Assembly (NCBI GenBank): GCA_017506865.1
Contig: JAFCMP010000457.1
Location: forward strand, 434,001 to 498,000
Origin: Tribonema minus
Lineage: Eukaryota > Sar > Xanthophyceae > Tribonematales > Tribonemataceae
Length of the DNA: 64,000 nt
Reading direction: 5' to 3'
The position numbers were made by a program, and so were the translations under genes. Position 1 is the stretch's first letter. Each line of letters starts with the position of its first letter. Below the pieces are notes generated by a model. It made no database searches and was not told the DNA's origin. It worked only from the letters and a program-made list of their open reading frames with translations. Below are positions 1,296 through 43,700 of this stretch, piece after piece.

Positions 1296-4200
1296 CTGAG
1301 CAGGCTCCAATGGCAGGGGTTTGCCATCAGCCCCCATCACCTCCAGTGCATCCAGTCCAACGTAGTAGTGGTCGCCCCATGAGGAATGAATCACGATTTG
1401 AAGTAGCATGCCTGTTGGGTGCATGAGGGTCTCATAGTCCTGATGTGGAGGCATCCGCAGGTATGACACTCGGTGCAAGCGCTGAGTCTCCGTGACAGCA
1501 GCCAGCAGCCTGCAAGCACCAGAGCCGGCAGTAATTGAAAAAGCTGTCTGGTGTGGCATCCACCATTGATGAGGTCATTCATTGTAATGACGCCGCCGAA
1601 GAATCGCATGCATGCATTATACAGTGTTATTGAATAAACGTGATAATCCATACAACATGCAAGTTCAAAGGGCTGCTGCGGAGCTGGCAGCACAGGACAT
1701 ACCTTCCATCACTTTGGGCGATACTCTGTCGATCGAGGTTGATTAGTTGACCATAGTCAAGGGTGCTGCTGCCAGGAGCTCTCCTGATGATTGCCTGTGT
1801 AAGCACACTTCCATCCAACTCAAACTGGATGAGCCTGGCGCCAATGGATGCATCCTCATCAGATCTGTTGTAGTTCCAGAGGATGATCCCGGCTACCGCC
1901 CGATATCTGCCCAAGTCTATCTGCAGGGTGCAGCCTGTGGCAGCACTGCAGCATCCAGAAAATCATGACAGCTGTGAGAGGGGGTGCTACAACTATCAAA
2001 GAAGTGCCGCAGCTTACCAACACATTGCATTCAAAGCCTACCTACCGCCTGCGATCAGTGTGTGCTGCGCTCAGGTGCCTGGCAATACATAACATTGTCC
2101 AGAGTGGAGCACTGACGTCGTGCGAATAACATTGTCACCCCACACATGATGCAACTCTCATGCAGTCATCATGACAACAGTTAGTAAACAAGATACACAA
2201 AAGGCAAACGTATTGTATGACAAAACTACCTGAAAGGTGCTTTCCACATATGCCGCTGCTCCAGAGTCTGCGTATTGCCGTCAAGGAGGTTTGCTGGTTC
2301 TCTCAGATGCTCTCTAAGTCCAGATGCACCAGACCAGGGTGTCAGGCAACAAATGCTGTCTTCACCCAAGCTGACGCATACTGGATCTGTCTGGTCGGGC
2401 ACTTGCTCCAAAATTGCGACGCCTGTGCAGATAAGCATGCAGATACACACAGGCAATGAATGCAACAAGTTCGTGGCAAGCATATTTGCGCATCACTCTT
2501 GCCTACATGGTAAAGGTGCCTCACACCGTGCACACTATCCAGCTGAGACAAACAGGAAGCATTGACACAAGCACCTTCATCACTTGTTTCCAATGCAATT
2601 CAGCAGCAGTCATCAGCGACTTTGTGTGCCGATCATGCCCCTGCAGCCTGTCAAGGCCATACAATGTCAGAAAGGAGATGTTCATTTGCATCCATGACAC
2701 GCCAGGCTGCACACAAGACAATGTCATGCGCCATTGTTCGCATACCTGTGAGGCCGCAAAAGCTCTTGCTGCCCCATGTCGAGAGTATGCGAAGTCTGAG
2801 CATGCGACCAGAGGTGTGGGGTGCCGTCGCAAGTGCCGCCGCGAGCGCAACTGGTGCAGCTGTGCTCGTCGCAGCAGCAGCACTCCTCAAAACAGCATCA
2901 GTGATGGTTGACCTGCCTGCAGAGTAGAAATCCGACAATAGGTGGCAGGCGCAGCTGAGACGTCTCAAACGCGGTAAGCGTAAGCACATGCAAATCACAC
3001 CAGCAGCGTGTGATGTTCTGGGATGTACTGTAGCACCGTGCACAAGTCATCAAATCCTGGCGCTACCTTCATTTCACTACAACAGTCATCCCTCACCATC
3101 AGCAGGCATCCTGCAGCATTCCAAGTGTAGCTTCGAGCATGAATTTTGGTTGGCGTATCTGCAACCAGCATCATGCGATCAGCTCCCATTGACCATGTAC
3201 CTGATGTACTTTGTAAGCCTGCAGAAAGTACAAAATGGAACCACTTGACTGACAGGCCCTGTTGCATTGCACGTCTACAGGCACGAGTTTGTGCACCATC
3301 AGGGTGCATTGCACATGTTTCTTGCACCAAACACGTGTAGCATGCTTGAATTCATTGAGTCCTGTTCAGCTGTTCAAAGTTACTCGAGGTCATTGAGGTC
3401 TACGTATGGATATATTGGATTCACAGCAGTGCGGTTTGTAAAAACACTTTGCTTATCATCGGCACTGACCAATTCACACTCAAGAGTGGTGCGGCCTGTA
3501 CGGACTGTCGCAAACTCAGACAATGCTCACACATCAACCCACTTGCCTTGTGAAATTTCTGGTGCATTGCTGCTGACACGTTCAGATGCCACCTCTGATG
3601 CATATGCAGCATCAGTGCCAACTTCGTCGAATATGCTGGGTGCCTGCATGCAAGCAGACGCAACACCATCTGAGCATTTGCAGGTGGTCCAAGGCAGAAA
3701 GAACACCACTGAGAGCCACAAATTTCAGGCATTGCACTGGACACGATTGCCACCATTTACTTCATGAGAAGCGGTGGCCATGGAAGCGCAGCACTTCAAT
3801 GCGGCAGCCAATACCTGTGTTACAGCATTCAAAGTAGTGTAGGTCTAAAGGCCTACAGCTGCGCAGGCAGCACATGCATACCAAGCTGTCGCCTGTAACT
3901 CAACATCAGGCTTTGATCTGCGAACATGAAATGGAGCCTCCAGAGCTGTCATCACAGCAATTTCCTGCGCCAATGATTATGTTGCCTTTGCAGCACTTCC
4001 TGTGACGTGTTCATCAACTAAAAAACTCCGCATGCCTTGTAGCAGTAACTGTGACAATGGCATAACATGCATTGCATGCGCACCAGCGTGAGATTGGCCG
4101 ACCGCAAGCTATTATGTACATGAACATGGTGAAATCACGGGGCATGTGAAGGATGCCTACAATGGCTGTTCCCATTGTTGGAGTACCTGAGCATGTACAT

Positions 4201-7200
4201 GGCGTACATGGCGTGCAGGTGGTAGGGCATCCGCATCCATCTGAACTTCCGCAGTCGTTGGGCGGCTGCTGTTGTATGTTGCTGACTCTGGAGCCTCGTC
4301 CTCATTCTGCTGCTGCTGCTGCAATGGCAAGTGTTTCAGCCCTGTAGCCTCTGCTCGTTGCACCAGCTCCTCGTCCAATGTGAACAGTATCAGCTCGCAC
4401 CTCTCAGGGACAAATGGTAAGCCCGGGGCAGCTTTGCGGATCTCACCATCAAATATGACGGCTGAATCCAATGATATGCGTGCTCGGCGAACGCCGCGGT
4501 ATGAGTGTTCTCTGGACTTGCTGTAGTTCCATATGCGCATGGCACTCAGCGTGACTGGTAGGTGGAACTGCACTGTCACCGTTGTCCCGCATGCTGCACA
4601 AGAAGGTCGGGAGTGCAGAAGGTACGGATGCAGAGGTGGGCTTGAGTGCCTATTGGCGCAATTGTCAATGCAGCATAGAATTGCCGGCATCTGCACATCA
4701 ATCATCAAACGTCAGGTTTTCCCCAACCAGCACTGTGTTTGGAGTGAAGACCCGCTCTCAGAGTCCACAGTGCGCCGCTGTCGAACACAATCAATGATTG
4801 TCAACCGCAACGGTGGGCACGACAAAATTTTTGAAACCTCTTGCAAAGCATTGTGCAGAGAAGCGTGTCAATCAGGTGCCAGTCAATCCACATACACTCT
4901 GAGCGGAGATGTCCCGTCTTACCAGCGTCGTGAGGTGCCAGCCACATGTGCAGGTCATCGCAGGTGTCATTGACACCGTCAAAGAGCTTGTCTGCAGTTC
5001 TTGGATCAGCGGCACCCGGTGACCCCTGAGCCTCCACTTTGAGACAAGGGTGCGCCACTACCTGTTTGATGCAAGGATGTGCGATCAGCTACTAGGGATA
5101 TGTGCCAGGATGTGACAATAGCACGTTCATTGCAAGCATCAGCAGATATTGGCCACCAAATAACATATTTTGAATACCCATGCCTCAAACGCTAAAAGCT
5201 TGCACACTGAAGTCTTTTTGACTGGTGGATATGGTGGTACTGTTTGACTCGTGGCCGATTGCTGCAGCAGCGGCGACCACGGTTATTGGTGGAAGGCACT
5301 TGCGGCTGACCATCCCTTGTCACCTGGAGCTCTACGATCTTTTGATTCGTTTTCATATTTTATGCGTTGCGCACATTGTTGTGCTACAAGAGCTTGTCTG
5401 CAGAAATGCAAGCCACCAGTCACATGTATCACATCGCAGTGTGGCATGTGTGAAGGCAGCAAGTCCGCAAACACAACTCTTCAAGTACCTGCTGGACAGG
5501 GTCCGGGAGTGTCACCACTTGGCCCTGCTCATCAAACAGGTCCACGCCAGCCAGTCCAATGTAGTAAGGGTCGCCCCATGTGGACAGCAGCTCCATCTTC
5601 AACACACAACCGCTGGGTAGCACCGGGCACTCAAATGGAACGTCTGGCATGACTTGATGGAGGCAGTGGAGAGGTGCTGCTTCATTGAGCTCCACGCTCT
5701 CATCAAACTCCGAGCTGCGCTGATGACCTAGGCTCTGGTGCTGAGCACCAATGCTGGCATGCTTGTTGTCTTGATTGCATCCACGATCATTTGCAACACC
5801 CATGTCCGGCAGCGGTGGTGTGTCGTGTGCTGCCATTGCCGTGGGAGGAGGTAGGGGCAGCGGAGGCTGGGGTTGTTGTTGTTCAGGAGCATCCGTGTGC
5901 TGATGGGCCAGTGAATATGCGGACAGTGCTCCTAGCTGCGCCTGCACCAGCTGTACCTGCTCAGCGGTAAGCATAGGTACAATACATACCGGCTGGCATT
6001 GGGCATCAGCATAAGAATGAATGGGTACTGACATAGTGATATCTGTTTGAGGCACTGGGTTGAGCGCAGAGGTACCACACCAGACAAACTGTACTGGAAT
6101 TCCAACAGACGAAAAAGTTGGATGTCGATTCGCTGCAATAGCCAAGCTCTATTTTGCCTGGCAGGTTGTCGCATGATGAGAGACGGCTGGCTCTGAATTC
6201 GGCCAGTTTGTTCACACGCATGCTGAAGCAAAACAAATTAGCATCCAGCTAAGGTGGATGCTGCTATGGCAAGAAGTTCAGATTGTTGATGGCGCACAAA
6301 TGACCTTGTTGGGTTCCTCAATCATACACTCACCAGCAGATGGCAGCCGACCCTCACCCGAGTGCTGCTGCCGTTGGTCTCAAGCTGAATTGGCATGCAT
6401 CTGCCAACGGCTGACTACATTGTCGCTCCACCCACAGCATGATACTATCATGTGCAACGGTTTGCAAAAAGCATAACCTTATACTCTGGAAATCGCTTCT
6501 GCGGTGCTGTCAAATCATTGCATGTCAATCATGCACTCAAGTGTACTTCAAAATGCACAACATTGGTCCGGCACTCTCTTACCTTTGCGAGTGCTTCTGA
6601 TACCTTGACGGCACGCTCAAGCCTAGTGGTGGGCTTGCCATACTCAGGCGCACCTGCTCAAAACAATTGATAACCAAGAACATGAAGGGGTTCTTCAGCA
6701 CAAGCGATGACAACAACATAACTGGTAGAAATGGGTGCTGATCAGTGCAGAATACTCAGCTCCCCCATGCTTCCTTACGATAAGCACTTTTTTCAGCGAG
6801 AGAAGCCCCAAACAACGACCCAAATGTACAGTTCATGTTATCAGCATGCCCTGCAAGCAAGGGGGTCTAGAAAAGAAAATTGGGGTCGCAACTTCCCCAA
6901 ATCCCCGTACTAACGCGTGCCAACTCAGCCCTACAAAAGCGTGGCATCACGATATAAAAAACACTTTTTTAAATTTATTTAGCACTACGAAAACAACGTT
7001 TTTGCAGCACTACGCGCGCGTTAAGGGGTGCAACCCGGCAATTTCTCGTATGCGGCTTTGCATGGCAGCAACGAGGCTGCTCTGAAGTTATTGCCGGGTT
7101 AGGGGTCCCGGTTGGCGAGAGCACTCATTCAGGAGGGCTTCGGGGGGGTCTGCCGACCAAGCAGCAGTAAACACATGAACCGTGCTTGTCTTACACGCTA

Positions 7201-10200
7201 CCTTATGAGGTGCGACTGGGTGCGTTAGAACGCTAGATAAGCAGTCTCCAACATCTGTTAAGGTTGCATAGGCAATAGTGGTGTATTACGCACGCGCGTG
7301 TGCTAAAAGTGTTTTTGTAGGGATGGTCTGACCTCGGTTTTCGGGGAATCGCGACCCCACTTTTATTTTCTAGACCCCCTTGCTGCAAGTGCAGGGCTCG
7401 ACAGCACAAGACGGCTAATGCTTGGGTTAGGTTTGCAGGCATGCTCCTCGTGCATGATATCAAAACATGCCTCGTCTTTTAGAATCTACAAACAAGCTCT
7501 AATGCCATCACCATGCAGGGATGAGCGGCGTCGCTTAGGTCTCCTGATGGTATCAGGTTGCAGTGGCTTCACGATACGGCCAGTTCAATGTGTAGGCTTG
7601 ACCCACTTGAAGCCTGGACATCTAACTGGATCACATTGTATCGACAACACAAAAGCCTTGTCATCTGCACTGTTTCACATGAGATTAGCAATAGTGACAA
7701 AAGCAGCTGACCTTCGGCGCATGTCTTCAAATCAGCAGCATCAGCATTGCGGCAAATGGGCGCAGCAGCTGCGCCCAGCCTGCTTTTGCTGTTGCGCCCG
7801 AGGAAGCTGAGGGAGTCCCATGACAGCTGCAGGTGCGCTTGTGCAAGCTTGTCCTCTTCACAGGTCCCTGCGCGTCTCTCAAGCACTGGGCCTTGCTCTT
7901 CCATCTGTGCCTGGAGCTGGTTCCGACGTTCTCGCAGCAGCAGCTGCCCCAGGACATCATGCAGGTCATCTTCACAGGCCTGGATCGCTTTGAGCTGAGC
8001 TGCAGTGATTGCATCGTACGTGATGTGGTTCTCCCTTCGAGCGGACCTAGCATGCACATACAATGCAAAAATGTTTACAGATTAGCTGGCTGTTGCTACA
8101 TGGCAAGTGGCCAGCACGCTCCGCATAGAGCAGGCAAGCCTTTTTGTGCAGCTTAGGGTTACGTGGCGCAGCACTGGCAGTCTTGATAATAAGTATCCCG
8201 CACCCATGAAAACAGCTTTTCGTATGAGCGCTGCAGATGTAATCGTTGTTGACGACCTGCAGCATCTACATGATGCATCGGCAAATTCACTCCAGCTGTA
8301 AACTTGTACATTTTCTCGTTTAGGGCTCAGAGAAGCCCACAAACAGATAAATGAGCAGAGTAGACGGTAGAAAAAGGCCAAGATTTGATGTTGTAGCCCA
8401 CACCATTCTGCAAGAAGCTCCAAACACTGGCTGTCAGTGCCACTGATCACACCTCAGCCTTCAAACAGTTGAGCGAAAAATGTATAGCCGAGGGCTTATG
8501 CTTGGTCACGTACATGAAGCAGAGAGTGTACTGCAAAGTAGATGTGGTCATGGACAGCAAGTCATGGTTTATACATAATTTGTCAGTTGCACTCAAGACA
8601 TGGCTGCTGGTGGGCTCTTACAATACATGGCGCTAAGTGCCGCAGCTTGAAGCGCCCTTATGTCGCAGCAAATGGCAGTGCTACACAACAAAGAATATGC
8701 ACTTGCACCTGCTGCTGCTGACTAGACTCAGGCACACGTGCGTCAAGCACTACTGTCATCCATAAATAGAATTTGTGTAGTAGCTCAATCTAGAGGGTGG
8801 TGCCAGGACAGTGAGCAAGAACTCCATGCAGTAGCATACGAAACGGAAGGGTCATGTCAGCTGTATAGACGGACATGTTCAACATGTCATAGGAGCATTG
8901 TAAACAACAACACCTGACATACATAGCCTACCACTGCAGAAGCTGACCTATCTGTAGTGGCGTCTGCATGCCGCCTGCGTTGCCTGCTCTGAGGTTCCTG
9001 TGTCGCCTGTGGGTTTGATACCTGCACTGTCGCTTTGTTATGTGGTGGCGGGTCAGAATGCCGCCTCCGACCTGTGAAAGGCAGTTGCGTGTACAAGCGT
9101 GCCTGAGTTGTAACAAGCACACACGCATGCGCTTAGTGCTTCACATATGGTGGTGCTTGCTTTCGGGCACTCACGCATGAAGTGTTTATAAGGGGCGGCC
9201 AATGCAAGCACTGGTATTGTCACAGGTGAGTGTTCACCCGGAATACTGACATTTCTGTACCATCCCCTGATGCATCAGTATACGTTGGGGTGCATGTGCA
9301 CAGTTGTGTGGATAAAGTGGCTGATGCATTCGTGTGCGTGCCACTCTGTGCATCTACTTAGTTGACATGTTGCACTTGACAGGTCATGATGTTCGTGCCA
9401 AAGAAACTTATCATTCAACTCGCAGGTACATTAGCTGCAGAGGCCACAGCCATGGCCAGGTGCGATGCACCCAACGTGTTATGGCTGCAATCGAGCGGAG
9501 CTCTCACATGATCACAGATCTGAGCATGTAGCAACACGGGCTGACAACGCTGAACATACCTGTGTGACAATCAGTTGCTACCTCGACGTGAGTGCCACTT
9601 GATTTTGTTGGTACGGCTGTGCTCCTGCCATCATGTTGAGGTGTCCCTGCTCTCCCTTGAGGATTTGCACTAACAGCAGCGAGCAAGCATGGCACTATGG
9701 TATCCACATCAGCAGTGTCCACAACAGTTCTGGGTGGCTCAAAGCTGCTGCCCAAGGGCCGATGGCGCTGACGCCGACTGTTGCTTGAGGTGCCACTACT
9801 GCCTGACCCGCACCGCCTCTTGTCATCGGGAAGAGGGTCAGATGCAGCCCATGTGCGCAGGGCTGCTGCTGCTGCGGGTGGATCAGCAGTTGCTGTTTTT
9901 GTGAGCCAGTCAGGGGGTCGCACTGAGCCTGCACAGGTGCACGGCAAACAAACAGAAATGGCATGACTGTCTTGTGTGCAAGATGTGCGACAGCACCAGC
10001 GACGATGCAAACTACCACGCTCAATCATTCACACCACATGCAGCGAGCTTCGACTCACTACGAGTGCATGGTGCGCGGTGCTCTGCATAGACCCACGGCA
10101 CTGCCTTCCTGATATATATTGTGTGAGCCCCAATGCAGCGTACCCCCAAACTAACGCCAATGCAAGCAATGTGCAGTAGTCATCTTGACATGCGAATGCC

Positions 10201-17579: not shown

Positions 17580-20500
17580 TCAAAGGCCTATGTAGTGACT
17601 CCGCCCATTGGGGTTGTGAATTGGCGATGCGTGTGGTGAGGTAACGGCCCATTCATACCACACCTTTTTGTCACTGCAGCATCGCCAAAAGTGTGCCTCC
17701 AGTGTCTCGCCAGCACGCAGCTGCACGGGCTGTCTGATGGGGATGTATAGGGGGAACCAGCTGAACATACCCTGCGATATGAAAGCGAGAGCGTGTGAGT
17801 CAACCACCACCGTCTTGTATGCACTGGCGTGGGACGCCACTAGTCACCAGCCGCGATAATTGGCGCTCATTAAATGCAGTTGACCGCGTTGGATTTGTAT
17901 CTCAAGTGGGTGCCTCTGCCAGAGTTGCACATGGCAGGTGGCAGATAGCTGTAGTCCTTCCATCATCAAAAAGTACAACACACAGGGCCATGCTGGTGCC
18001 GTCACGTGATCAGTCCAGTCCTTGACTTCAGCGCATACACACTCAGATGTCATAGAGCTTTGCTGGCACCAAGGCACGCCTCAACAACAACTGCTTGCGT
18101 TTACAAGTGACAGCCTAGTGCAGGCATGTATGTTTCTGTTGAAAAGCAGTGAAGGGCGATTCTCCTAGGCACACCAAGGATTGCGCTGCTGATTTTGGTG
18201 GTTGAGCACGACGGAGTTCTCATCGGCGCTATCATCAGTACATGCTCACCTCCGAGAAAGTTGATGGAACAATGCTGATGTCAATGTCCTTGTACAGCTT
18301 GGCAGAGAAGTACCCTGCGAAGCCGTGCAGCGTGAATGACTGCTGCACATCAAAGCTGTGGCAATACAACAAGCAAGCAAGAAATGACAACAATTAAGTA
18401 TAGTCGGTGTAAGTTGCTGCGTGTGCCATATAGTGGGTAGAATGCGAATAGCTGAAGCAGCCAGGGGCACGACGACAGTGCATCACGCCCTGTTGTGCAC
18501 GCAGATGGTGCTCACAAGTCACACACCACTGCAGCATGTGATCTGGTGGAGGTATGTAGCATCTGCATCTTACCACGCGCGGACAGGCGGCATGGAAAGC
18601 ATGCCTATATATTGGCCACACGTGCACAGGCAGTAACATATTCACGTGTCTATCCATGCGTGCACATGTGTGGTATGTGTGCACTGCAAGTAGCTGGTGT
18701 GCAGGGTATGAGGGCACTTAGTGAGTAGACGAAAGCAGAGAGAAGCACACAACACAACACAACATACCGTTCACTGCGTTTCAGTGACTTCATCGCCGAG
18801 TACACTGTCAGCCTTGCAATGTGATACTTAGACTATGTGCCAATGGTCACTTGTGTCAATAAGTTCAATTACTGTTACTGCACTGTTACTGCTAGCAGTG
18901 CTAGGTCTCACATACGTGTATACCAAGTGATTGGTACACACAGGATGATGCTGGTCAGGAGTGATAGGCTGCACACCACACAATTACCAACCTGAGAGTG
19001 ACGTATCGCCTGTTGTCAATGCCGCCCGTCCCTGGCAGTGGCACATTTGGGTGCTCAAATATGAAGCAAGGCTGCTCCTTTGCCATCTGGCAGAAGTTGT
19101 GAAGCTTGACTACATATGTCGTCTCCATCCGCTTCACCTCCCCCATGCTTTCCACTGCACGCCAGAGCTTATGCGAGGACATGGGCGCCACGAAGCTGGT
19201 GTACTCGTAGGGTATGGATATGCCGCCTGGTTTGAGGTACGCCTGCGCTCCATCCAAGCATTCCGGGGAGAGCTCATTGTCTCCCCATGACCCCAGCAGC
19301 TCACTGACCAAAATGTCTGCCTGTGACACGCATGTGACCGCACAGTGGGGACAAATAATGAGAGTCAGCTCACAAGCGCCACAACAAATCAGCACTCAAG
19401 TGGTCCTGTTTTCCCACTCAGACACACGACACACGCATGACTTAAAAAAAGGCATGAGCAGCAAGGTACAAGCTTATTGCTTGCGATTCGTTTGGCCCTG
19501 CAATCAGCAACAAGAACCTGGTGCGTAACATTATTAGTGTGCGTTCCATCCCGTGCTCGGACAATGCACCTGTATGCTTTGTTGAGAACTGACGACATTG
19601 ATACGCATGTCTGTAAAATAATCCATGACTCGTGGGCTGTGTCGTTCAGTTGCGATGCGAGTGGAAGTCAACAGCAGCACACCGTCATCAAACGGGCGAG
19701 CGAACAGGGCATTACTGTGGCACAGGCAACAGTAATCAATGACACTTCTCAGCACAATGTCAGCAAGACCCATGCAATGGTGATAGATTGCAGGTGCGAC
19801 GACATGTGTCACAGGTGCATCAGGTAGCTTCAAGTGCTGCAACCGCATTGTAGTGCTGTTACAAGGCACACGCACAGCACTTGCCTTCTCAGGCGCATCC
19901 CAGCAGCGCATGTCGGATGCGACAATGGTCACATTGGTCCAGCACTCAGTGATGGCCAGGTTCCTGAGTGTGATGACTGCATTGGCATTCTTCTCAACAG
20001 CCACAATGCGCAGCTGGCGGTTGGCCTCCCTGGATGCATTGAGCGCTGCCCTGACTAGCGGTCCACGGCCAGCGCCCACCACCATCAACAGTGTCACCTG
20101 TAGGCGTGTATATAGGTGCACCAAACATGGGCAGCTCAGCACACGATGCTGACACAGGCGCACGCGCATGCAGCAGAGAGGTGTCGCACAAGCATCTTGA
20201 CAGGTTGACTGATAGTGCCTGAAGCGAACAGCTGTCAGCCACAAACAACTTTTGCGACAAAGGATGCCGCACTGGGCATCAGGCAGATTGACTCACAGTG
20301 CCCCACGCAAATGGAATCAACAATGTGACAACAAGGAATGGATAGCACTAGATGCTGCCGCATGCATGGCTCATGACACTGGCAACTTCAAATGCAGCCA
20401 CGCAGCCAGCCTATGAGCACTTGAAGCTGATCACTGATACAATGAGTCATCAGTAGGGATAATACCACTGATAACAAACATGAATGCACACAGAATGATG

Positions 20501-23500
20501 TCCATTCAAACACAAGTGAGATCAAACAAGGCAAAACTTTTGATGTGCTCACAAAAAAACATGCCTTGATAGTTCACATGAGCAAATATGCAGCATGCAC
20601 ATGACAGGTGTGCTGGCGTCTCATTTTTGTTTCCTGATTGCTGGTACGGTATGACACTATACAGCATGAATACAACAGGCGTGTTGATGTGTAAACCTTG
20701 CTTGCTGATTGCTAGTACGGCTCGGTATAACACACCTTGTGTTGCGTACCTTGTGTATGTGATCGGTATTGTCATCATCAAAATGAAAAGCCTATAAATG
20801 CCGGAAAACAAAAAACGGCAGCCAGCACAATTGAGTACATTGGGACAAACAGTACACCACCACTTGCCTTGTCCTCTGGTGTGTCGAGCAACGCAGCAGT
20901 GATGGCCAGCTGATACTGGCTGTACTTGACAGGATCCTTCTCAAACACCTCATATGTCTGAGACTCCAGGTTGTCCATGAGCGGTTGCAGTGGCGACTGC
21001 AAAAAGTCCAGGTAGGGGGCTTCAAAAGTCTCGCGTTCATGCAAAGGCGGCCTGTGGACACAACATGAGATCATGCGCAGAGCATCTCCAATTTACACCA
21101 TATAAATTCTCACCAAGGTGTGATACAGGGTATGTGCCCCAAGCAGGCGCAGAGCGAAAACATGGCCGGACAGCTACTTGTGGAGTATTGAGGTTACAAG
21201 ACATGCACTTGACCACTTTGAGAGGCACAGTGGCATCATGATACAGGCGCACACTATCTAATCCCAAACTTGACTTGTTTTGTTAAGACCAAGATCAATG
21301 AATGATGAGATTCAGGTGTCTCGAGTCAACAGTCGCCTTGCTTGACAGTGGTCCAAATCTGCAAGACAATTTTTTTTGAAGTATGCGATCAGTAATAATA
21401 ATGCAAGGCGCGCTCCATCGAATGCACTGATATAGTTCTGCAGTATGAGCAAATCCAGCACACAGAAGACATGCATGCATGTACCCATGTGACATCGTGT
21501 CGTTCCTGTGCACGTCACTTGCCTTCTGGTGCGAAGGTGGTCCAAGTACTGGAGGTAGGGCAGGTATCCCTTGGGGTGCCTCGGCCTCCCCTTTACCACA
21601 AATTGCAACTTGAATCGCATGAGCCACATGACCAGATCCTGATGTCTCCGTGACAGCGTGGGATAACCTTTCTTGTTGGTCAGGAAAATGTTGGTGCGTA
21701 CAATGACTGCACGCACTTGCTCTCCGTCCCACCGCGCCAGGGCTGCTTCGCTAGGTAGGTCAGATGTGAGCTCCAGCACCACATTTAAGCTGTAGATGGT
21801 GGACGTAGCATGAATATATGGAGGTGAGCAAACATCAATACTTCGTATGACACTATCATGGTGTGATAGCTAGCTTGAAGCACAGACAGGCGCTTGAACG
21901 TCAACAGTATACAAAGCATCAGCCTCTTCACACAAGTACTTCCATTGATGGTATGCAGATGCACAGCTTGATGCCTTGTCAATGAGGCACACAATCATGC
22001 TGCTCAGTAACACAGTGGCAGGTAATGCAGGAGCTCAGCATGCAACAATGCACCAACGGAGCACATGAGCTAGGTGGCATGGAACTCAAAGTACTGTTGG
22101 TTGTTAGGACGTTCAACTCTCAGGTGGTCAATTTCTGGAGGAGAGCGTTCGTGGAAATGAATCAAAACATCGTAGAGTTCTAGGTGACAAGGTGTGATGA
22201 ATGCTTTCATATCGTACGTCAGATATTGAACCATATACCTTTGAATGTGCCAGCCCGGCAATGTGTATGTAACGGCATGTGCTACGTAGCTCAGACGTAA
22301 CCAGATACATACGTTAACAAGGCATTGAGGGCACTCAAACGCATGCTGGTCATTTTTTAATGTACAATATATGTGTTGTGGTGCCACATTACCAGTGCGC
22401 AGAACATGCAAGCAATGGCAGAAGGCGCATGTGTGCGCTATATTTTTGTCAAAGAATTTGACTTTGCTCACCATGCCAGGTGCTCGCACAGAGTTCGGAT
22501 CCTGCTCCATGTTTCCCAAGGGTCCTCCAACACGGCCCCAGCAGGTTTGATGCCTTCACCGCCACCAGCAGTTCCCTGACCCCTCATCAGGCACAAGCAC
22601 ACAAAAAAAAAAGCGCGCGGCTTATTTAATTTGCAAATAGTTCGAGCAGAACATGCGCGATGGCGCATCGCTGGCTGCACTTGACTGGTGAAAGCTCGAT
22701 TGGCATTGATGTCAAATGGACACACTCCATGGACCATGGCAATGGCAAGGTTTACCCATATCATTCATCACAAAACTGATTTAGCTCAAACACGCCAGGA
22801 TACTGTACAACAGAACAGCAGTGCATGGTTTTGCAAGCTTGCAAACATTCACTAAATCAACAGCTGTCCCCGCGCGTCCTTTGCCACGGCATCTCATATG
22901 GCGCTCGTTTCAAAGAAGTGTTATGTACAGTATGTGCGGTGCACACCATGAATGCAATCACAGCACAGGAGTGCACATGGTGACGCGCTGCTGCATATCA
23001 AGATATAGTCTAGGGTTTGCTTGAACCTCCCCAATACAGCCTCAGATGAAGGCATCACAATGACCCCATTCCACTGCCTCTCACAAAAGTATGACCAACA
23101 GCGCATTATGACAATGGCATGACCTGTCTGTGCGCAAGATATGGCCTGCACCTAATGGTTTAGTTGATTCCGTGCATGCCAACTTGAGGACATTACTTCG
23201 TAGCTGCATGGCACTATACTGATCCACAGCACCAGCATTGATCACGTGCAACACGCCACTACCATCATCGCAGCTGACCTGTTCTGACTGCGGCCACACG
23301 GTGGGAATTCTGACCCATGCCTGCACATACCCCAGCTCCTGAGCCACCTGGTTCAGGCACCGGCTGTAATTAGCTCCAGCTCCTGGCCTAGGTGTAGGCA
23401 GCATCACCGCAGCCAGTGCCAAGTGGGAAACCCAAGCCATCTCCTGCTTGAAAGCCACTTCTGACGACCGCCTGGTGTCCGCGCATGGCGAATCAAGGTC

Positions 23501-24656
23501 AATCCACTGCAGGGGATCAAGTCAAAGCGCCAGCATTGAGATCAGCACATGTAATGTGATTCGTGTACACGTGAGCCATGCAAATTGACCACTAGCTTGT
23601 GGAGGCTGAGTTAAAGGTGACCAAGTTGCCCGCATCATGAAACAAGTGAGTTCCTCTGAAAAGCAAACCCCAAAAGATCTGAAGGCTGAGTTAAAGGTGA
23701 CCAAGTTGCCCGCATCATGAAACAAGTGAGTTGCTCTGAAGAGCAAACCCCAAAAGATCTACTTTTTGAGACGTGATGGCGAATGAACTGGCAGGAAAAG
23801 TGCAAAGGAGTACGGACATATCAGCAAAATGTCATTCATGCATCATGACGTACAGTCATTTGTGCAAGAGCAAGTGTACAATCTGTTTAAGCGCCATGCT
23901 GATACAGTAGAATACATGTATGAAACACAACGCCGGTATTGTCGGCCATAATGCAGGTAACAACTTTGCCACCAACTGGACACCTTCATGACCCCTTCAG
24001 TCACCAGACGGTGGACATCATGCATATTCAGACTGCTTCGAGCTGTGCTGCACAGTACTCACTAAAACACGTCAAAAACATGCCATACAGACATACCTCA
24101 GATATCTTCCCCACTACCAGCGACCCCCACTGCTTGCTGTCCAGAAGCAGATCGCTCCTCGTCAATGGTGTACTACGTGTTTCGCTGACCCCCCTTGCAT
24201 CCCTGCTGAAGCGGGGGTGTACCTGCAGGAGCGCGATCAACAGCAATGGGTTTGGCATAGGCGTCGCCAAATTATAACAGCCAGGGCAGCAGCAGCAAAC
24301 ACAGCAGCAGCACACTATCCTACATGCACATCTTCCGCCCGCCATGACAGAGTTTTCAAAGCTCGTCGCAGTAGCAATCTGCATTGCTCCAGGCCAAGAC
24401 CTCCAACACAGAGTTTCACTTACCAGTGGTACGCAGACAAAATCGAAGTGCTCCTGGCGAGCTGTGACATGCAGAAGCAGCAGCGGTGAGTAGTATATCT
24501 GCAAGATTTGGCGACAAGATTGGCGACAAAGGAGCACAGTAGCGAGAAGCGTGCCTCACCATCCTCCAGTAGGACCGCCAGATCCGGGACGCAATTTGTC
24601 TCAAATCCCACTGTCAGCTTGTCCGACATGGCGCAAACCCAGCTGTGTGAGGCCAA
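17580..24656 (-). CDS. PRMT5: PRMT5, type II protein arginine methyltransferase
   Basis: PRMT5 transfers methyl groups from S-adenosylmethionine to arginines, giving symmetric dimethylarginine on histones and Sm proteins (family knowledge). Eleven exons join in frame: 24656-24560, 24461-24424, 24222-24097, 23506-23279, 22575-22472, 21789-21523, 21051-20868, 20097-19885, 19320-18992, 18355-18250, 17771-17580. They encode 627 residues (human is 637). The N-terminal barrel shows NCVPDLA and RSDLLL. The catalytic part has [12 protein letters not shown], where Phe323 matches the phenylalanine that sets symmetric methylation. It also has [10 protein letters not shown] at about 354-363 and [15 protein letters not shown] with the paired glutamates at 426 and 435. 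The C-terminal beta barrel ends in GRSHYIGL. All key residues are present, so it should be active. Introns after exons 6, 7 and 8 start with GC, and only that choice keeps the frame and the conserved protein. Confidence 0.96.
22152..22195 (-). repeat. Peptide-coding repeat fragment, copy B
   Basis: On the minus strand this reads [14 protein letters not shown] and stays open for about 30 more codons ([11 protein letters not shown]...). It lies in the PRMT5 intron between exons 22575-22472 and 21789-21523. It matches copy A at 5314-5354, with changes mainly at third codon positions. It may be a remnant of a gene or transposon ORF. I recognise no family. Confidence 0.5.
23604..23760. repeat. 80-bp tandem duplication
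   Basis: The block from ggctgagttaaaggtgac to ccccaaaagatct (23604-23680) is repeated almost exactly at 23684-23760, with two substitutions seen. It lies in the PRMT5 intron between exons 24222-24097 and 23506-23279. The near-identity points to a recent duplication. Confidence 0.9.
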
Positions 24657-29143: not shown

Positions 29144-29638
29144 TTCTTTCTCTGTTTTTATTCTTTTTTTGAGACTTACTTCAAGTTGTTGCAGTTCACA
29201 GTTGCGAAACAAACAGATGAGCAGCAGGCGTGAGCAGCAGGCGCTCGAAAAGTACGGGTTACTCCCAGGTCGAAGTCACGCTTACGACCGCAACGGTCGC
29301 GACCTTGGCTACTCTATGTCAGTTGCCATTGCCCACGCTGGCAACGGCTGCTGACCATTGACCACCGTCCACATATTGTCGGCCAGTGAGGATGTTACCT
29401 ATGTACCAATAGTATGTCCTCGATAATCGAGATGCAACGTTCCAGGCGATCGCGCTCGAGGAGCAGCAGCACACGCTTTACGTACACACCGGGGTCACCC
29501 CCCACTCTTGACTTTGTTTATTCTTCTTGAAGTTAAGCTTTTCTCCGCGTTGTCGTGCGGTATCTCAGGCCACCCATACGTTTGTCGCGCACACGCTGTC
29601 TACAGCTGAGTACAGGAACACGGCTACAGTATTCCAGC
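29144..29638. other. Divergent intergenic region (pseudoprotease / kinase)
   Basis: This separates the minus-strand gene starting at 29143 from the plus-strand kinase starting at 29639, so it should carry both promoters. It includes a short hairpin-prone stretch, gaccgcaacggtcgcgacc, at about 29285-29304. No clear TATA-like element is seen. Confidence 0.4.
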
Positions 29639-35157: not shown

Positions 35158-36291
35158 TCAAGGATTCCAACAGCGGCTGATAGGGCCTCCTCCCGCAAAT
35201 CCTGGTACCAGCTTCAGTACGGGGCCCAACCAGGGGGGATCCATCAAGAACACGCCCCCCTTTGCCTTACAGCACTGCTCAACACACAAATTCTGGAACA
35301 GCTCATTTTGACTCGTGTACCGGCAGCAGCGACCCAAATTGCACTCCGTGGCTCAGGCTCATCCAATGAAATATATGCTCAAGGGCTCGCGCCCGAAAGC
35401 AACAGAAATGCGGAAGGCCAGGGATCATATCAAACGGTGGCCACTGAGCCATAGGGCCAGCAGTACACAGCCGCAGACGAGTGTGACAATGATGGTCGTC
35501 ATCAATTCACACCTGCAAGGGGGCATTAGCATGCGGCGCTGTGTAAGTGGCGTGGACTGCAGAACTTTCAATCTCCTGGCCACAGAGACTGAGTCACTAG
35601 GCAATGTGATGATGTCAAAGTGTAGAGATTGTGAAAGGGGCAGTATCAGGCCACGAAGGGGGGTCAAGCTCCGTGACACAGCTGCTGTCTGCTGCTCGGG
35701 ACGGCTGATTACATGAGTCTCCGGGGTCCTGAAGCAGATGTATTCACAAGTGCAGCATTTGGGCATCCTGTCAATCGGTTGATATCTCTTGCAAAGCTTA
35801 GACAAGCCGTGACGCATCTCCTGACCGTGCAGGTATCACACATTTGTACAGCAAGCCTGGAGTCCATCTGGTGCAGGACTTATGATTTGAATCATAGAAA
35901 GGCAGCAGTCAGCAAATGATGCTGCCTGTCAAGGAGAAAAACAATCTGGGCATACCGTACTTGACACAGGTTGAATTGCTCATCACTTACCGGTTGATGG
36001 CCTCCTTCGCCTTGGCGCATTTTTGCTGCTCACGCTCTGCCCGCCGTTGCTGCTCCATTTGCACTTCCGGGTCAGCGATTGACATGTATGCACTCTCTCC
36101 CACCATCCTGCCGCCGAACAGCGCTGCGGCTTCAGTCGAACTTAACTTCCAGCCTCGCACTGCTCCATTTCCTTTGAGGTGCTTCCAGCCTCTTTCCGCA
36201 TTCGGTGGCATGGTGTGGGGAGAAGGGCCTCGTTCGGGATGTGGCATACTGTGTGTGGGTAACACTGTAGCCATGGGAACAGCACCTGTCA
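35158..36291 (-). CDS. Unrecognised gene, at least three exons, 5' end uncertain
   Basis: Three minus-strand exons join in phase: 36291-35991, 35704-35513 and 35311-35158 (stop at 35160-35158). A possible upstream exon at 37237-37154 (RKFPSYNRLRSVAPP) also has the matching phase, but no start codon is fixed. The predicted product contains GNGAVRGWKLSSTEAAALFGG, then a charged helix (QMEQQRRAEREQQKCAKAKEA). A hydrophobic-rich segment follows (LTPLRGLILPLSQSLHFDI), and the end is GGVFLMDPPWLGPVLKLVPG. DPPW also occurs in MT-A70 methyltransferases, but nothing else here supports that. The acceptor before the last exon is poor in pyrimidines, so that exon is the least certain. Confidence 0.4.
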
Positions 36292-37718
36292 CTGAAACAA
36301 GATGGGGGCACTGAAGCAAGTTATGGTCCATTCCTTCACTTCCTGAATTGTAGAATTCTTATTCTAGTGAGCAACAACCCCAGCTGATACGCATCTGAGA
36401 TATGTCATTGTAGCAAGCAACTGTGACACCATGTACCAGAAATGCCAAGTGCTTAGACCCAATCACTACCGTACCTCACACAGCAAGACAAGCTGAACTG
36501 CTGCTGAGTTGCCATCAGCGTCAAATCTACCACCTGACACAGAAATGATTACAGCTAACCTCGCCTGGTCGATCCTGTTTTGGTATGCAAGAACGAGACA
36601 TTGCACTCGGACTACACGTCGTTGTTTAGTGTGACGAACATCGCAATGCATCGAAATCTGGCAGGATGTGACTCTGTAGTCAAAGCAGCTGGAGGTTGCT
36701 GCTACAAGACCAACAAGTCATGAGCGTGACCGTCAAAGCAAGCATGATCCCTGACGGGAAATTAAGCCGAGTGAGGTGGTACTCCCTTTACATTGTTGAC
36801 AACGCACATTTGCTCTACGTAATCATGCACCATAGGGCCATAAAAGCTTGGATGAGCACAGTATCGCCCCCGCCCTATAAAAGAAACGCACAGCATGCAT
36901 GCTTTTGGATAATGATTTCAGAAGATAAGTTTGAGCACCATCAACCATGCGCGCTTGACGGGATGTACCTTGGGTGAAGATTGCCGGTGTTGCCCGAGGA
37001 TCAAGACGACGTCAGTCGTCAGTGGGAGAAGGCCATCGCTTTATCGCCTTTGCGCGTGTGCACAAGCGCACCAAACTTCAAACCCAATTGGCAAACTTGC
37101 AGTTTGTCGCGTGAGTGATCACGATCTTGCCACACGCAGTGCAGCGGCATCACCTGTGCTGGAGTGAGTGGGCGACGGCTCGAGGGGGGGCGCAACAGAG
37201 CGAAGGCGATTGTAGGACGGGAACTTGCGGTCCTGCTCTAAGGGAGTCACAAAAAAGCTCGGTTTTACGCTTGTCGCCCTGGATCGTGAGCAGTGGAGTC
37301 CTGCAGGTGACCGCGATTTCGTGTGGTATGCTCTGCCGCATGGTCCATGTCGTTGTATGCAGGATGGGCTTTCTGAAGCTGCTTTCAATAGGCGCGACAA
37401 TCCTCCGACTCTGGCATTGAGGCAATTGCTGTGTGTGCTCAGCACAGGTGTGCTGTTGCCTGAGCCCCGCATCAGGCTGATCAAGTAAACTAATGCATTG
37501 TGAAATTGACAGCTGAAACGTTGAAAACAGCTGCAGTACTCGAATGTGTTTCTAATTCGTTTCTTGTGCAATGTCTGTTTGTCCGATCCAAGTTCGTGTG
37601 CACTTTTGAGGCTACATTCACCTCACAACAGCACTTTCTCACGCAGACGGAGGGTGCAGCGGCGTGGAGGCTAGGCGAGCGCTAGGCATATTGCTGGAGC
37701 TGGAAAAGCCGGCCGGCC
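36292..37718. other. Region upstream of RPB2, possibly holding 5' exons of the unknown gene
   Basis: RPB2 starts on the plus strand at 37719 and the unknown gene runs on the minus strand, so this is a divergent spacer with at least the RPB2 promoter. The possible minus-strand exon 37237-37154 lies here. Apart from that I see no recognisable gene. A GGCCGGCC palindrome immediately precedes the RPB2 start codon. Confidence 0.4.
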
Positions 37719-40700
37719 ATGGATGACCTGTATGGCCTTCAGGTAAGGACATACCGCTTGGTTCTCACAGTCACTAATTTAGGCGGAAGGTGTTCAAATT
37801 AGCTTGTGGAGCAGATCTGTGTTTCATCTGTCTGTCAAAACAAACCAGGAGTGTAGTTTGTACTGGCTTATCCCCCAGCAGCCAATGTGGCATTCAGAGG
37901 TGCCCTTGCATGGTGTCAAATTAGTGATGACCACTCACAAGCATTACAAGACTCCGTCACGTTAACATGTTGTGTACCACCATACTGGCCTGGGGCAATT
38001 CCATGTTCATCTGCCGCCAGTGATGTTGCTACTGTGATTGCAGAGCTCTACCACGTATGTACCTGATATCTGGTGTGCGAATCCGGCTGATGGCAGCAGA
38101 CACTTCCTCCACGTTCCTGAGTTGCTCATGGTATCTCTGTATTGAGTCTTTGGAGACCAACCACATATTTTGTATGTGCTCTTTTGTCAGCAAACATCAT
38201 ATGCGCTTCGCAAACAGCAAGCAAGTTCGCTCGGCATGAACTCCAAATCTGGAGCACACCCATTCACTTGGTTCACGTCAACCTGTTCTCAGCGTACGTG
38301 CCGTCAAGCACCGTGCAAGTGCCATTTTCTCTGCGCATTGACCTGGCCAGCATTTTCAAACTGGCTAGCAGTCCGACAAGCTCGCCTGCTGCAGTAATAA
38401 GGCATATTGGGTGGAGCGCACTGTAGACGCGTGTGTTGGCAATGAAAGTATTGACTCTGCCTACACATGAACATTGAGTTACTTCATACACCGATATGCA
38501 GTACGTAGATCTTTGTGTGTTCCTATATGTAGTGCCTGCTTATATGCTCGCATTACACTAGACATATCCGCCATCACAGCTGTGTGCTGCATCAAGCCCC
38601 CCGCAAATATTGTTGCAGGAACATTCAGGTTGCTTCAGGCACATTGTGACAACTTAGCAAACGCCGCCAATGCGGGGCGGGGCATTTGCTGCTGCTATTT
38701 AAGGGCAACTGCTCATCCGAAACATTGCTAAAATGCTTGTTGACTTCTTCTTCATGTCGCCCTACAGGCGCTTTGCGCTGCTGGTCGGATGTCAACCTGT
38801 ACTGTAGCTACCAGCGCATTGATGTCCAGATTCAGTCATGACATTGCTGCAAATGGTGATTTTGTTGCCACAGGATCGGGATGGGATGGATGTGGACAAT
38901 GAGTATGAGTTGGATCCCCACGAAGAGGAGATAACCCAGGAGGATGCGTGGCAAGTGATATCCAGCTACTTTGCGGAGAAAGGGCTGGTGCGGCAGCAGC
39001 TGGACTCATTTGATGAGTTTATCAACAACACCATGCAGGTAATGTACATGCGCGGTCTGCAAAGAGTGCCCGGCACTGACAGCATAGGTCAGCACATTTG
39101 AGTATGTGGGTTCAGAGATGACTATGCAGTGCCTTCTCATAGCAGATGTTGATGCTGGTGTAGTCATATTCACCATACGCTGGCAATTGCTGCAGGTCAC
39201 ACTTGCTGCTTGCTTCACAACCTGGGAGTAGCACTTTCATATCGCCAGTAAACGAACAACGTTCATGGCATGGTTGTAGACAAAAGCCAAGGTCCGTTCC
39301 AAGTCGCTGTCTCGGGCACAAAACACCAATACATCTTCATCACCGGAGCTCGGTTTGCCAGGTGTTGGCATCTTGTCTGGGCTACATCATGTACAGCATT
39401 CCTGTCCTGTTGTCACCTGTGACTGCTGCCACTTTGGGGCATGCAGCTGCATACTGAAATCATTGCTTTGGGCTGCAGGAAATTGTGACGGAGTCTGGTG
39501 ACATCCGCGTCACACCGGAGCCGCAGTATCTCCCGGGCATGGAGGTCACCAAGAAGACTTTCCAGATCAAGTTCAACCAGGTCTACCTCTCCAAGCCTAT
39601 CGTGATCGAGAAGGTGGGTGTGGTCTATCATATCAACAAGCACCTCCCAAGACTCTGCGAAGAAGTTTTGTTTCGCACACAGTGTCTGCAAGGCAGCAAG
39701 CATCAAAGCCGGTGTAGTGGGCTTGGGTTGTCGTGCAAGGTTTTCGATGAACTATCCAGACCTTTTGGTTGCAATGCCACATGCAACAACAAAAGGCGAC
39801 TCCTTCCTCATTGTTCCTGTGGAACGCCCTCATGCGTATCAAGCAAGGGCTGCAACTCTTGAGCTGCATGCACTTGAGCACCTTTGCTAGTGTTGATTTT
39901 CACATAGCAGATGAGATGAATCACCCCAGATGATGCATTTCAATTGCATGCATTGAAAAGTTCGGATGCTTCTGCAGCTGATCATTTGGCCATGAGGTTT
40001 ATGAAGCAAGCATTAAGCGTAGATGCAATAGATGTACTTCAGCAAGTCATCTGATTCATGTCTGCATTGCTTGCTGATGCTTTTTGCAGGATGGCTCCGT
40101 GACCAACATGTTTCCGCATGAGGCCCGGCTGCGGAACCTCACATACAGGTGACTGCTGCAGTGCGCCTTTGTGCGGTCATCGTATGAAACTGCAACAGAT
40201 AAGTCAGGGCGGTGCTATACTCCCCGTTCAAATGCATGATATGCAATGTGACCCCATTGGTGTACAGTTTGAAGTTATGTCTTTATTGTAAGTGTAGCAC
40301 GTGGTCTCCTGCATCCTGCTTCGCTGCCTGGTGATGGTCCTCCAAGAGTCCCGCTGTGTTTCCTCTATCACCTTGCATTCTGATCATGAGGCTCTAGTGA
40401 CATGTTGGTGCATTCATGCTCTTTGTCGCTCTGACTGTCAATGGCCCAAAGCCCTACTGTCAACGGCCCACATGTCTCTGCTCGATATGTGTGTGTGTGT
40501 TTGTGTGGATGGCAACTTGCTTTCTAATGGTCAAGGCAAAGAGCACAGCGCTTTCTTGCTGTTGAACTTTGTTTATATATATGTTGCTTGCTTGTGGTGT
40601 TTGCATGCTGCAGTGCTCCGCTCTACTGCGACATTGACTGCAAGATCTATGATGCCGACAACCCGGCTGCGCCCATCGACGACAAGGCAAGTATTCTTCT

Positions 40701-43700
40701 CGCTGCGTACTGGAAGTATGTCATGTAATGTACAACGTGTGCTATCGTCATGAAGCGTGACGCATGTCATGTACACGACAAGGCAAGTATTCTTCTCGCT
40801 GCGTACTGGAAGTCGTGGCGCATGTCATGTACACGACAAGGCAAGTATTCTTCTCGCTGCGTACTGGAAGTATGTCATGTAATGTACAACGTGTGCTATC
40901 GTCATGAAGCGTGACGCATGTCATGTACACATGTGTATCCCTGCATGCATTTCATCTTGTCATGATGCAGTTGGTGGAAGCAGCAATCGTTCAGCGGCAG
41001 CCTGACATGGAGTATATTGTTTGCAACCAATTAAATAGTGCGCTCGCATCAGCCTGACCAGCATAGACTGCTTACATGATATGTGCACAACCCACATATC
41101 GCACTCCTTTGCGTGTTGTCTCCAAGTGCAAATACAATTCTAAAGTGGCCGTGCTGTGCGGGTGTGCCGCATATATTGGGCGCTGCATGCCTCGAAGCAG
41201 CAATTTCAGGAGTACGGTCACATGAACAGAACTGTAACATGCATGGACTCGATCCTCATCAGCATTCTGGCTTCCTTGCTTCCGCTGGATCACAGGCAAT
41301 GGAGAAGGAGTTCTTGGGCTATGTGCCCATCATGCTGCGCTGCTCGTTCTGTGTGCTGGCGGACCGCAGCGACAGGGAACTCACAGAGCTGGGCGAGTGC
41401 ATCTATGACCAGGGCGGCTACTTCATCATCAATGGCAGGCAAGTGACATGATTCCGCTTGTTGAAAGGCAGCCGGTCATCATGATGTGTTCAGTACTAAG
41501 CAGTCGCTACGTACATGTCAGTCATGCAGGATACGGCTGCATTTAAACGCTTTGCTCATGGCACAACTAATGATGCTTCGTGCAAAAGGTGTTATTGCTT
41601 TGTGACTTGACACGGCGATCCAACGAGTGTGCGTGAGCACTAGACTCCTCAACTGATGTGGTTTGCGTGCCACTCGCTCTTACTGTTGTGTGTACTGTGC
41701 AGTGAGAAGGTGCTCATCGCTCAGGAGCGCATGAGTAACAACCACGTCTACTGCTTCCGCAAGAAGCAGCCCAGCAAGTTTCACTGGGTGTGTGAAACGC
41801 GCTCACACGTGGAGGGAGGTGAGCTACCTGTTGTGTTGATGTCATTGCGGAGTTGCACCTGTCATGGTTTTGCAAACAGGCTTGCTAAACATAGTCAGGG
41901 AATCATGCAGTGTGCACAGACAACGCGAAGCTCAACGAAGCACATGGCATATACGCACCAGGCTGATAGGTCAAGAGGCAACATGATGACATACTTTAAT
42001 GTGCTTTGCCACCACTTGTCAAGTGCAAGCGCTTTGCCCTGTCTTCAACGGCTTGCTATGGACGAATCAGCTTTTAGTGTGTGTATTCCATGCAGTACTA
42101 CAATAGATCATGATGTCAAATTATGCCCATGCAGGCTCGTCGCATTTGCTTGTCAGTATCAGGTTTATCTACTGTCAGCGAGTATTTCAACGGGCACAAT
42201 GCCCTTTTGTTTGTGAAATGATGGATGACCACCTCATGGCCAGTTGCACGGTGACATGTGAGTTGAAGTTGGTGACAACTTGCTGAGGCGGTATGACAGG
42301 TCTGTGCTCTGAGTGTCACCAATGCTCTGCACTCCTCTCATTGTTTATGCAGGCACCAGACCAACGTCCACCATGTACTTGCAGATGTACGTCAAGGGGC
42401 CCAAGCACAGTCAGATTGCAGGGGGGCAGGTGCGTCACACACACCGACAGGTTTATATAGCCTGTTACCTGTGCTATGCCCTTGATTTGCCATCGTTTGC
42501 ACAATGTTGTTTCTGCTTCTAAACGGGTGCTGGCAGTCATGATTCGCACACCATCTTGTGGATCCTTCTGGCACTGCGCGGTAATAACAAAGCTGTGACA
42601 TGGAGCAAGCACAGACATATACTTACCCCACTTGTTGATGCGCGACACTACTTTGTCATGCAGTCAACATTGAAGAAGGCTCACTTGCCATGCCTTTGTG
42701 CAGCGCTCAACATGCCCATGACAAGGGCGCTGCAAACGTTGCATCAGTACTCATGGGACAATGATGCAGCACTACAGTATTCTTGCGCTGCTGTTTTCGC
42801 ACTTACTCATGCTTCACTTGTGGCCTGTTGCCCGTGCATCTATGGCTACAATGCCTTTGCTGGAGTTCAACTGAAATGCATGTGCGCCACATGTGTATGT
42901 ACATGCAAATGTGCATGCTTTGTCTGATTGATGCAACGTGCCACGCTCACTGCATTGTACATGCTTTGTCTGATTGGTGCAATGTGCCACGCTCACTGCA
43001 TCGTCTATTGTGGCAACAGATCAGGACCACTTTGCCGTACGTGCGCACAGACGTGCCTATCGTGCTCATCTTCAGGGCGCTGGGCTTTGTCAACGACAAG
43101 ACTATCCTTGAGCACATTGTCTACGACTTCAGGTCAGCAGCTACAAGTACAGTATACCACATGCTAGACTTGGGTAGTGGCCGTTATCGGCTGTGAACCC
43201 TATGCAGGCAGTATGCGCTGGCACAAGCGAGCAGCACTGTAGTGACATCAGTTTGTTGGATGGCACGGCAAGCACGCCTTTGGATTTTGCACATCTTAGG
43301 CATCATTAACGTCATTTTCTAGTCGGTCAAACCCTCGTGAAAGTCATGTAGCCATGCCGGGCTTGGCACACATATGAAACTGATGCATGTGTCACGAATG
43401 GGAACGTCACCTGGTTTGCCTTAGCCCAGTCAGTGGCATCATCATATGTCAATGTACATGCGGCATGCGTTCAATTGCCAAACCGTGTCTCTTCTAATAG
43501 TGCCATTGCAGCTTCTCATGATGACATCTTGATCATCGATGGCTCCATTTCCTCCCGTTGTGACAGTGATGCTGAGATGATGGAGAAGTTCCGTCCATCA
43601 CTGGAGGAAGCTGATGTCATCCAAAGCAGGACCCTGGCACTGGACTTCATTGGCAAGCGTGGCAGCGCGGCCAATGTTGGCAGAAATGAGCGCATACAGT

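Follow-up and report, generated by a model that had tools for sequence, protein, structure and literature searches.

Genes and candidate GC-AG introns in the window

This analysis concerns introns that appear to begin with GC, rather than GT, in a 64,000-nucleotide stretch of the Tribonema minus genome. The whole of this stretch, which we call the window, corresponds to positions 434001-498000 of contig C457, in a 158.18 Mb genome of 554 contigs. Its G+C content is 51.5%. Genes for RPB2, PRMT5, KATNIP, and a HAD protein are found in the window, and an earlier note placed eight GC-AG introns in the first three of these. The motif claimed, AG|GCAAG (where the bar marks the exon-intron boundary), is read at all eight donors on the appropriate strand. 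A ninth donor, at position 59160 in the HAD gene, is CAG|GCAAGCC. The RPB2 exons match RPB2 chains of Pol II in the PDB (1170.8 bits) and PRMT5 is the gene carrying PF05185. Features of these two genes, with boundaries or introns modelled in part using a hidden Markov model (HMM), are listed below.

37719..52454, + strand: RPB2 gene; HMM model with 22 exons and 21 introns (19 GT, 2 GC), and PDB match
40687..41295, + strand: predicted RPB2 GC-AG intron, AAG|GCAAGT, phase 0; frame check, with the same acceptor as the HMM model
41439..41702, + strand: predicted RPB2 GC-AG intron, CAG|GCAAGT, phase 2; passes the support filter, with 8/8 identities on both sides
17580..24629, - strand: PRMT5 gene; low end from the open frame, high end from the HMM model
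21052..21522, - strand: predicted PRMT5 GC-AG intron, AAG|GCAAGT, phase 2; passes the filter
20098..20867, - strand: predicted PRMT5 GC-AG intron, AAG|GCAAGT, phase 0; passes the filter, in both HMM model and alignment
19321..19884, - strand: predicted PRMT5 GC-AG intron, AAG|GCAAGT, phase 0; passes the filter, with 6 and 7 of 8 identities

GC donors are recovered by alignment without a preference for GT or GC

Introns were placed using a purpose-written aligner that fits protein sequences to spliced DNA. The donor score is blind to the first two intron bases. Hence, all 16 dinucleotides have equal cost, while only AG acceptors are permitted. The aligned set comprised 12 segments from 11 genes: RPB2, PRMT5, and HDHD3 (the HAD gene) in the window, and CCT1, CCT2, CCT3, CCT4, CCT7, CCT8, PRPF8 (in two parts, covering about 14 of 21 kb), and PSMA1 outside. 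Genes outside the window were picked without regard to their donors. The six chaperonin loci are from about ten made out, of which seven were retrieved. A further locus, L034, aligned poorly to every CCT (at best 133 identities in 562 columns), is probably cpn60, and was dropped before counting. Note that the human reference proteins did not come from a database, except for most of RPB2, which was taken from the PDB match. Introns were considered well supported if at least 3 identities were present in the 8 columns each side, with no more than one gap.

Before filtering, 109 introns were placed; 93 began with GT, 9 with GC, and 7 with other dinucleotides (one each of CT, AA, CG, TG, GG, TA, and CA). 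The filter retained 88 introns, of which 78 were GT, 7 were GC, and 3 were other (AA, CG, and CA). We judge these last three to be artefacts: the AA case stems from the PRMT5 intron at 20867-20098, whose far end the aligner divided around a spurious micro-exon, and the others coincide with a 51-nucleotide gap in CCT3 and the tail of PSMA1. The 11 PRMT5 introns placed consist of 6 GT, 3 GC, and 2 that we consider artefactual (CT, and the AA case just described). All seven well-supported GC introns end with AG and occupy a conserved position that maintains the reading frame. Introns starting with GA, though allowed at equal cost, were absent (0/109, and 0/88 after filtering). U12-type donors have the consensus [AG]TATCC. 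There were none among the nine GC donors, all of which read AG|GC[AG]AG.

If GC introns are forbidden, alignment scores fall in 6/6 genes with such an intron. Moving from a model with GT and GC to one with GT only, the score changes from 3493.6 to 3426.1 for RPB2, 1432.6 to 1357.3 for PRMT5, 213.3 to 188.7 for HDHD3, 1444.3 to 1400.8 for CCT7, 1419.1 to 1349.7 for CCT4, and 1478.6 to 1432.6 for CCT2. This agrees with the earlier expectation that gene finders limited to GT would break these genes. Gene models restricted to GT-AG would be wrong at the GC introns of Pol II RPB2, PRMT5, and three chaperonin subunits. We conclude that GC-AG introns are very likely present.

We also tried an ab initio gene finder that treated GT, GC, GA, and GG equally. 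Two runs placed GC at 87 of 231 and 103 of 245 predicted introns. We did not use these runs for rates because GA and GG starts persisted (16/231 and 23/245) and a PRMT5 GT donor, CTCAG|GTTGGT, was missed in favour of a GC site.

Shifted GT donors fit the frame at some sites

An alternative is that the true donors are GT sequences a few bases downstream, such as the GT at +5 of GCAAGT, used together with a shifted acceptor, so that GC has been misread. We checked reading frames for donor shifts of -12 to +24, and acceptor shifts of up to 24, with a net change of up to 12 nucleotides. A GT-AG pair displaced by +4 at both ends retains frame and length at 41439, 19884, and 3546. Such equal-length alternatives arise because AG|GCAAGT contains GT at +5 and the acceptor AG recurs four bases on. 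Hence, the proposal that only GC can preserve the frame does not hold at these three positions. At 40687, no frame-keeping GT-AG pair was found among the shifts checked. The frame is also kept by GT alternatives at +9 for 21522 and +12 for 20867.

These alternatives have a price. At 41439, the shift changes INGSEK to INGRQK, replacing SE with RQ, and at 19884 EKADI becomes EKANI. The conserved SE and D residues favour GC at the respective sites. The alternatives at 21522 and 20867 would add three and four residues. Moreover, the shifted GT donors are in poor contexts (CAA|GTGACA, CAA|GTGCTG, GAC|GTGCAC, and GGT|GTACTG), the +4 acceptor AG is missing at 7/9 GC introns, and the GT-only model costs score in all six genes concerned. 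We therefore consider systematic misreading of GT donors very unlikely. Of the eight introns in the earlier note, the three in PRMT5 and two in RPB2 are supported by spliced alignment and the frame check, and are predicted to be spliced as modelled; the three in KATNIP are candidates.

The RPB2 site at 40687 does not pass the support filter, having 0 identities on the left, where it adjoins a variable, poorly conserved stretch. With GT only, the model here places the donor at TAT|GTCATG, so that 11 codons of the intron are read as exon. The exon-intron junction (ACGACAAGGCAAGT...) occurs three times at the start of this intron (window 40679-40930, + strand). On reading through, an in-frame TAA precedes the second copy of the junction.

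GC introns are less frequent outside the window

Among well-supported GT and GC introns, GC accounts for 4/23 in the window (6/32 unfiltered) and 3/62 outside (95% confidence interval (CI) 1.0-13.5%; 3/70 unfiltered). The difference between the two has a Fisher p of 0.08. Pooled, the share is 7/85, or 8.2% (CI 3.4-16.2%). Compared to a rate of 2%, the pooled value gives p = 0.0016, but the pool includes the chosen window. For the sample from outside, the probability of at least 3/62 is 0.024 at a true rate of 1% and 0.13 at 2%. By itself, this sample is compatible with 2%, which is within the plant range. The window was picked for catching the eye and so its own rate is too high. The value of about 8/58 (14%) in the earlier note is not supported for the genome as a whole; outside the window, GC introns look like a few percent of the total.

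The window is also atypical for the word AGGCAAGT. There are 12 copies in the window, counting both strands, and 7281 genome-wide, making the window about four times denser. Three of the 12 copies are the tandem repeat in RPB2.

Nearly all GC donors are in contexts that pair well with U1

The sequence AAG at positions +3 to +5 is found in 6/7 GC donors and 2/78 GT donors (Fisher p = 4e-7). We also counted matches to the consensus complementary to U1, leaving out position +2. Where 7 or 8 of the 8 positions match, 6/13 donors have GC, compared to 1/72 below this level (p = 2.5e-5), and the mean number of matches is 7.0 for GC donors and 5.4 for GT donors. Six of the well-supported GC donors are AGGCAAGT and one is AGGCGAGT. 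Thus, the description of all GC donors as AG|GCAAGT was nearly accurate, with CCT4 (GCGAGT) and the weak HDHD3 site (GCAAGC) as exceptions. Good pairing of the rest of the donor is the usual rule for GC donors (PMC2490688).

Intron interiors (47,452 bases) show which base is expected at the equivalent position. The pattern G_AAG is filled by C 84 times and T 16 times, whereas G_GAG has C 25 times and T 50 times. Donors with AAG have C:T of 6:2, which matches the interior ratio of 84:16 (p = 0.62). Conversely, for donors with GAG, C:T is 1:24 compared to 25:50 in interiors (p = 0.003).

Selection against over-strong pairing could also generate this pattern, by removing AG|GTAAGT and favouring a weakening C at +2. 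Consistent with this, GTAAG is found in 2/78 GT donors, versus 12.1 expected under independence (p = 2e-4), and AGGTAAGT occurs 2108 times genome-wide, below the 3579 copies of the reversed-word control. However, the base after GTA is A in only 16% of cases in intron interiors, and donors agree (6 A among 28 GT donors with A at +3). Hence, strong pairing need not be selected against to explain why GTAAG is scarce. Furthermore, the C:T ratio of AAG donors is the same as that of intron interiors, and GTAAGT is below the trinucleotide expectation in the sampled sequence (56 versus 72.4). We regard selection of this kind as highly improbable.

Genome-wide counts of other words, which include copies that are not donors, are 7281 for AGGCAAGT, 6627 for AGGTGAGT, and 3812 for AGGCGAGT, with reversed-word controls of 1770, 3569, and 3738. 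In a trinucleotide model, composition alone predicts C:T of about 3.5:1 in the AAGT word. For the window and sample together, observed and expected counts are 28 and 13.9 for AGGCAAGT, and 5 and 4.0 for AGGTAAGT. Since composition accounts for most of the C:T ratio, we set word counts aside as proof of GC use and treat them as supporting only.

The U1 genes found have a standard 5' end

The earlier note suggested a lineage in which U1 recognition tolerates GC donors. More broadly, recognition of 5' splice sites could be relaxed across the lineage, by changes in U1, U1C, or U6, so that GC is accepted at any donor. The pooled share of GC donors (7/85) does exceed the usual 1-2%. The search for U1 scored 41 of the 2803 candidates from an initial pass. 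Three U1 genes were found; they are identical in sequence and each starts with ATACTTACCTGG, the standard 5' end. A scan for a variant end able to pair with C at +2, ATACTTGCCTG, joined to the genome's own U1 start gave 22 places with three or fewer mismatches, and the reversed control gave 5. The 22 places include the 3 canonical U1 genes, two others that were read further, and 17 unread. The two others, on C525 and C434, are the closest candidate and one more; neither is U1 by Rfam or alignment. Hence, no unusual U1 was found among the U1 genes and two variant candidates read. Upstream of the U1 genes at loci L004 and L005 is a common block, TTTTGCGAGTGGTTATGCTTT, with otherwise different flanks. 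This block is a possible small nuclear RNA promoter element.

The U1C gene (L039, C346:100494-100601) encodes a zinc finger with the stretch SAPGRKQH. At this place, we take the human protein to have SPSVRKTH / SPSVRKTHCSGRKH. In U1 structures, this stretch is located close to the 5' splice site. The apparently unusual stretch is the second point in favour of relaxed recognition. Against it, the U1 5' ends found are standard, only 1/72 donors with fewer than 7/8 other matches has GC, and GAG donors are 1 GC to 24 GT, which is under the intron background. Thus, GC is confined almost entirely to well-paired donors and the notion of a lineage with relaxed U1 is not borne out. We consider relaxed recognition unlikely. 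Recognition of the GC donors by a U1 with standard 5' end is consistent with the sequences.

A proposed model based on donor context and intron composition

Our preferred explanation, to which we give a probability of roughly three in four, is that these are ordinary U2-type GC-AG introns, recognised by normal U1, in which C at +2 is bound to context and its state is set by composition. In this model, C at +2 would cost one base pair with U1. The loss would be tolerated where the other donor positions (AG|G_AAGT) pair nearly fully. In such strong contexts, the choice between C and T at +2 may be nearly free, leaving local base composition to decide. As GCAAG is about five times commoner than GTAAG in introns, most perfect donors would then be AG|GCAAGT and AG|GTAAGT would be rare. 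Weaker contexts (GTGAG, GTACG, and GTCAG) would keep T, held by selection. Composition, rather than selection, would thus set C at +2. A stronger version, that +2 is effectively released from selection in fully pairing donors, with T or C set by intron composition, is a tentative idea that we think is probably incorrect. If true, the GC-AG share of a genome would be predictable, as the share of donors with the AG|G_AAGT context multiplied by the GCAAG:GTAAG ratio. This alga, with GCAAG at five times the number of GTAAG in intron interiors and a G+C content of only 52%, would then be a clean test case for differences between lineages. Context and composition would provide a simple account of GC-AG rarity or abundance, requiring no change to U1.

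Several points weigh against the model based on context and composition. First, well-supported GC donors number only 7, the basis is sequence, and the references, except for most of RPB2, did not come from a database. Second, starts other than GT or GC, in 7/109 introns of which 3 pass the filter, are method noise. Third, PRPF8, the best-aligned gene, has GC at 0/17 introns read. Fourth, the CCT4 and HDHD3 donors noted above depart from the perfect context. Fifth, in RNAduplex calculations with unmodified U1, GC sites range from -5.6 to -7.1, while the 5-95% range of GT sites is -10.4 to -5.4. The energies of GC sites therefore fall in the weaker part of the range for GT sites, and full compensation is not established. 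Sixth, p = 0.62 for AAG donors derives from 8 donors, too few to prove neutrality, and the 84:16 interior background could be shaped partly by splicing signals. Finally, the U1 matches score 65 bits, below the family gathering score of 69.5.

Comparison with other lineages

In animals, fungi, and plants, GT-AG introns average 97.9-98.7% (PMC7072748). Compared to these groups, the pooled GC share here is higher, though the sample from outside the window overlaps 2%. The introns resemble ordinary U2-type GC-AG introns, as portrayed in PMC7072748 and PMC2490688, with the same C at +2 and the rest of the donor near consensus.

For Emiliania huxleyi, a haptophyte, PMC4028052 reports 241 curated junctions, comprising 135 GC (56%), 95 GT, and 11 GA. 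A check against reads, covering 270 junctions, put GC at 65%, and 13 junctions were confirmed by reverse transcription polymerase chain reaction and sequencing. The authors point to the 65% GC genome, and warn of genes being broken by gene finders limited to GT. The similarities with our window are an algal host, GC-AG introns, AG acceptors, and genes broken by GT-only finders. Unlike E. huxleyi, where GC is the majority, here 78 of 88 introns are GT and 7 are GC, with a window G+C content of 51.5%. Dinoflagellates have both GC and GA donors, for which gene finders have been adapted (PMC5029490 and PMC6123633). This G(C/A)-AG arrangement differs from ours, since GA starts 0/88 well-supported introns. 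The finding is a moderate, context-bound case of a phenomenon known from other algae.

KATNIP, the HAD gene, and other features

The remaining claimed sites are in KATNIP, the identity of which is backed by two DUF4457 pieces, and in the HAD gene. We take the latter to be HDHD3-like, with support only from a weak alignment (83 identities in 264 columns).

2917..3546, - strand: possible KATNIP GC-AG intron, AAG|GCAAGT, ambiguous; from reading the sequence
11892, - strand: claimed KATNIP GC donor; motif only
15731, - strand: claimed KATNIP GC donor; motif only
58033..59160, - strand: probable HDHD3-like GC-AG intron, CAG|GCAAGC, phase 0; spliced alignment, below the support filter

The ambiguity at 3546 is the +4/+4 GT-AG alternative described above, read from the sequence. 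At 59160, which the earlier note had called possible, a separate HDHD3 alignment prefers GC to GT (225.3 versus 202.8) and the site is plausible, although it is below the filter.

Other features of the window were apparent. In the KATNIP region, positions 6847-7393 contain an inverted repeat with 58-nucleotide arms, 81% complementary and 431 nucleotides apart. A PRMT5 intron contains two tandem 80-nucleotide units, 96% identical, at positions 23600-23759. A Ragulator gene that we presume to be LAMTOR2-like (53507-53941, - strand) was aligned with no intron, although the rest of the window is rich in introns.

Elsewhere in the genome, the chlorophyll-binding family has 92 exon matches. Three light-harvesting complex (LHC) proteins were compared to the PDB. 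For one, the best match was to LHCI chains (9vfj) ahead of ACPI/CAC; for another, the same LHCI was ahead of Lhcr3; the third matched FCP-D, a fucoxanthin protein. Overall, the three matched mainly antennae of the red-lineage type and long LHCI chains. The host is thus a photosynthetic alga, probably with antennae of the chlorophyll a/c type. A search for phycoerythrin alpha (PF02972) gave no match, but its control gave none either, and so this result carries no weight. For the LHC proteins at L029 and L030/L031, long LHCI chains of 9vfj (411-1048 residues) were top among the chains listed. Finally, loci L012 and L013 contain tandemly repeated exon-like pieces, in a PSMA1-like proteasome alpha gene and a divergent histone H4-like gene, that may be decayed duplications.

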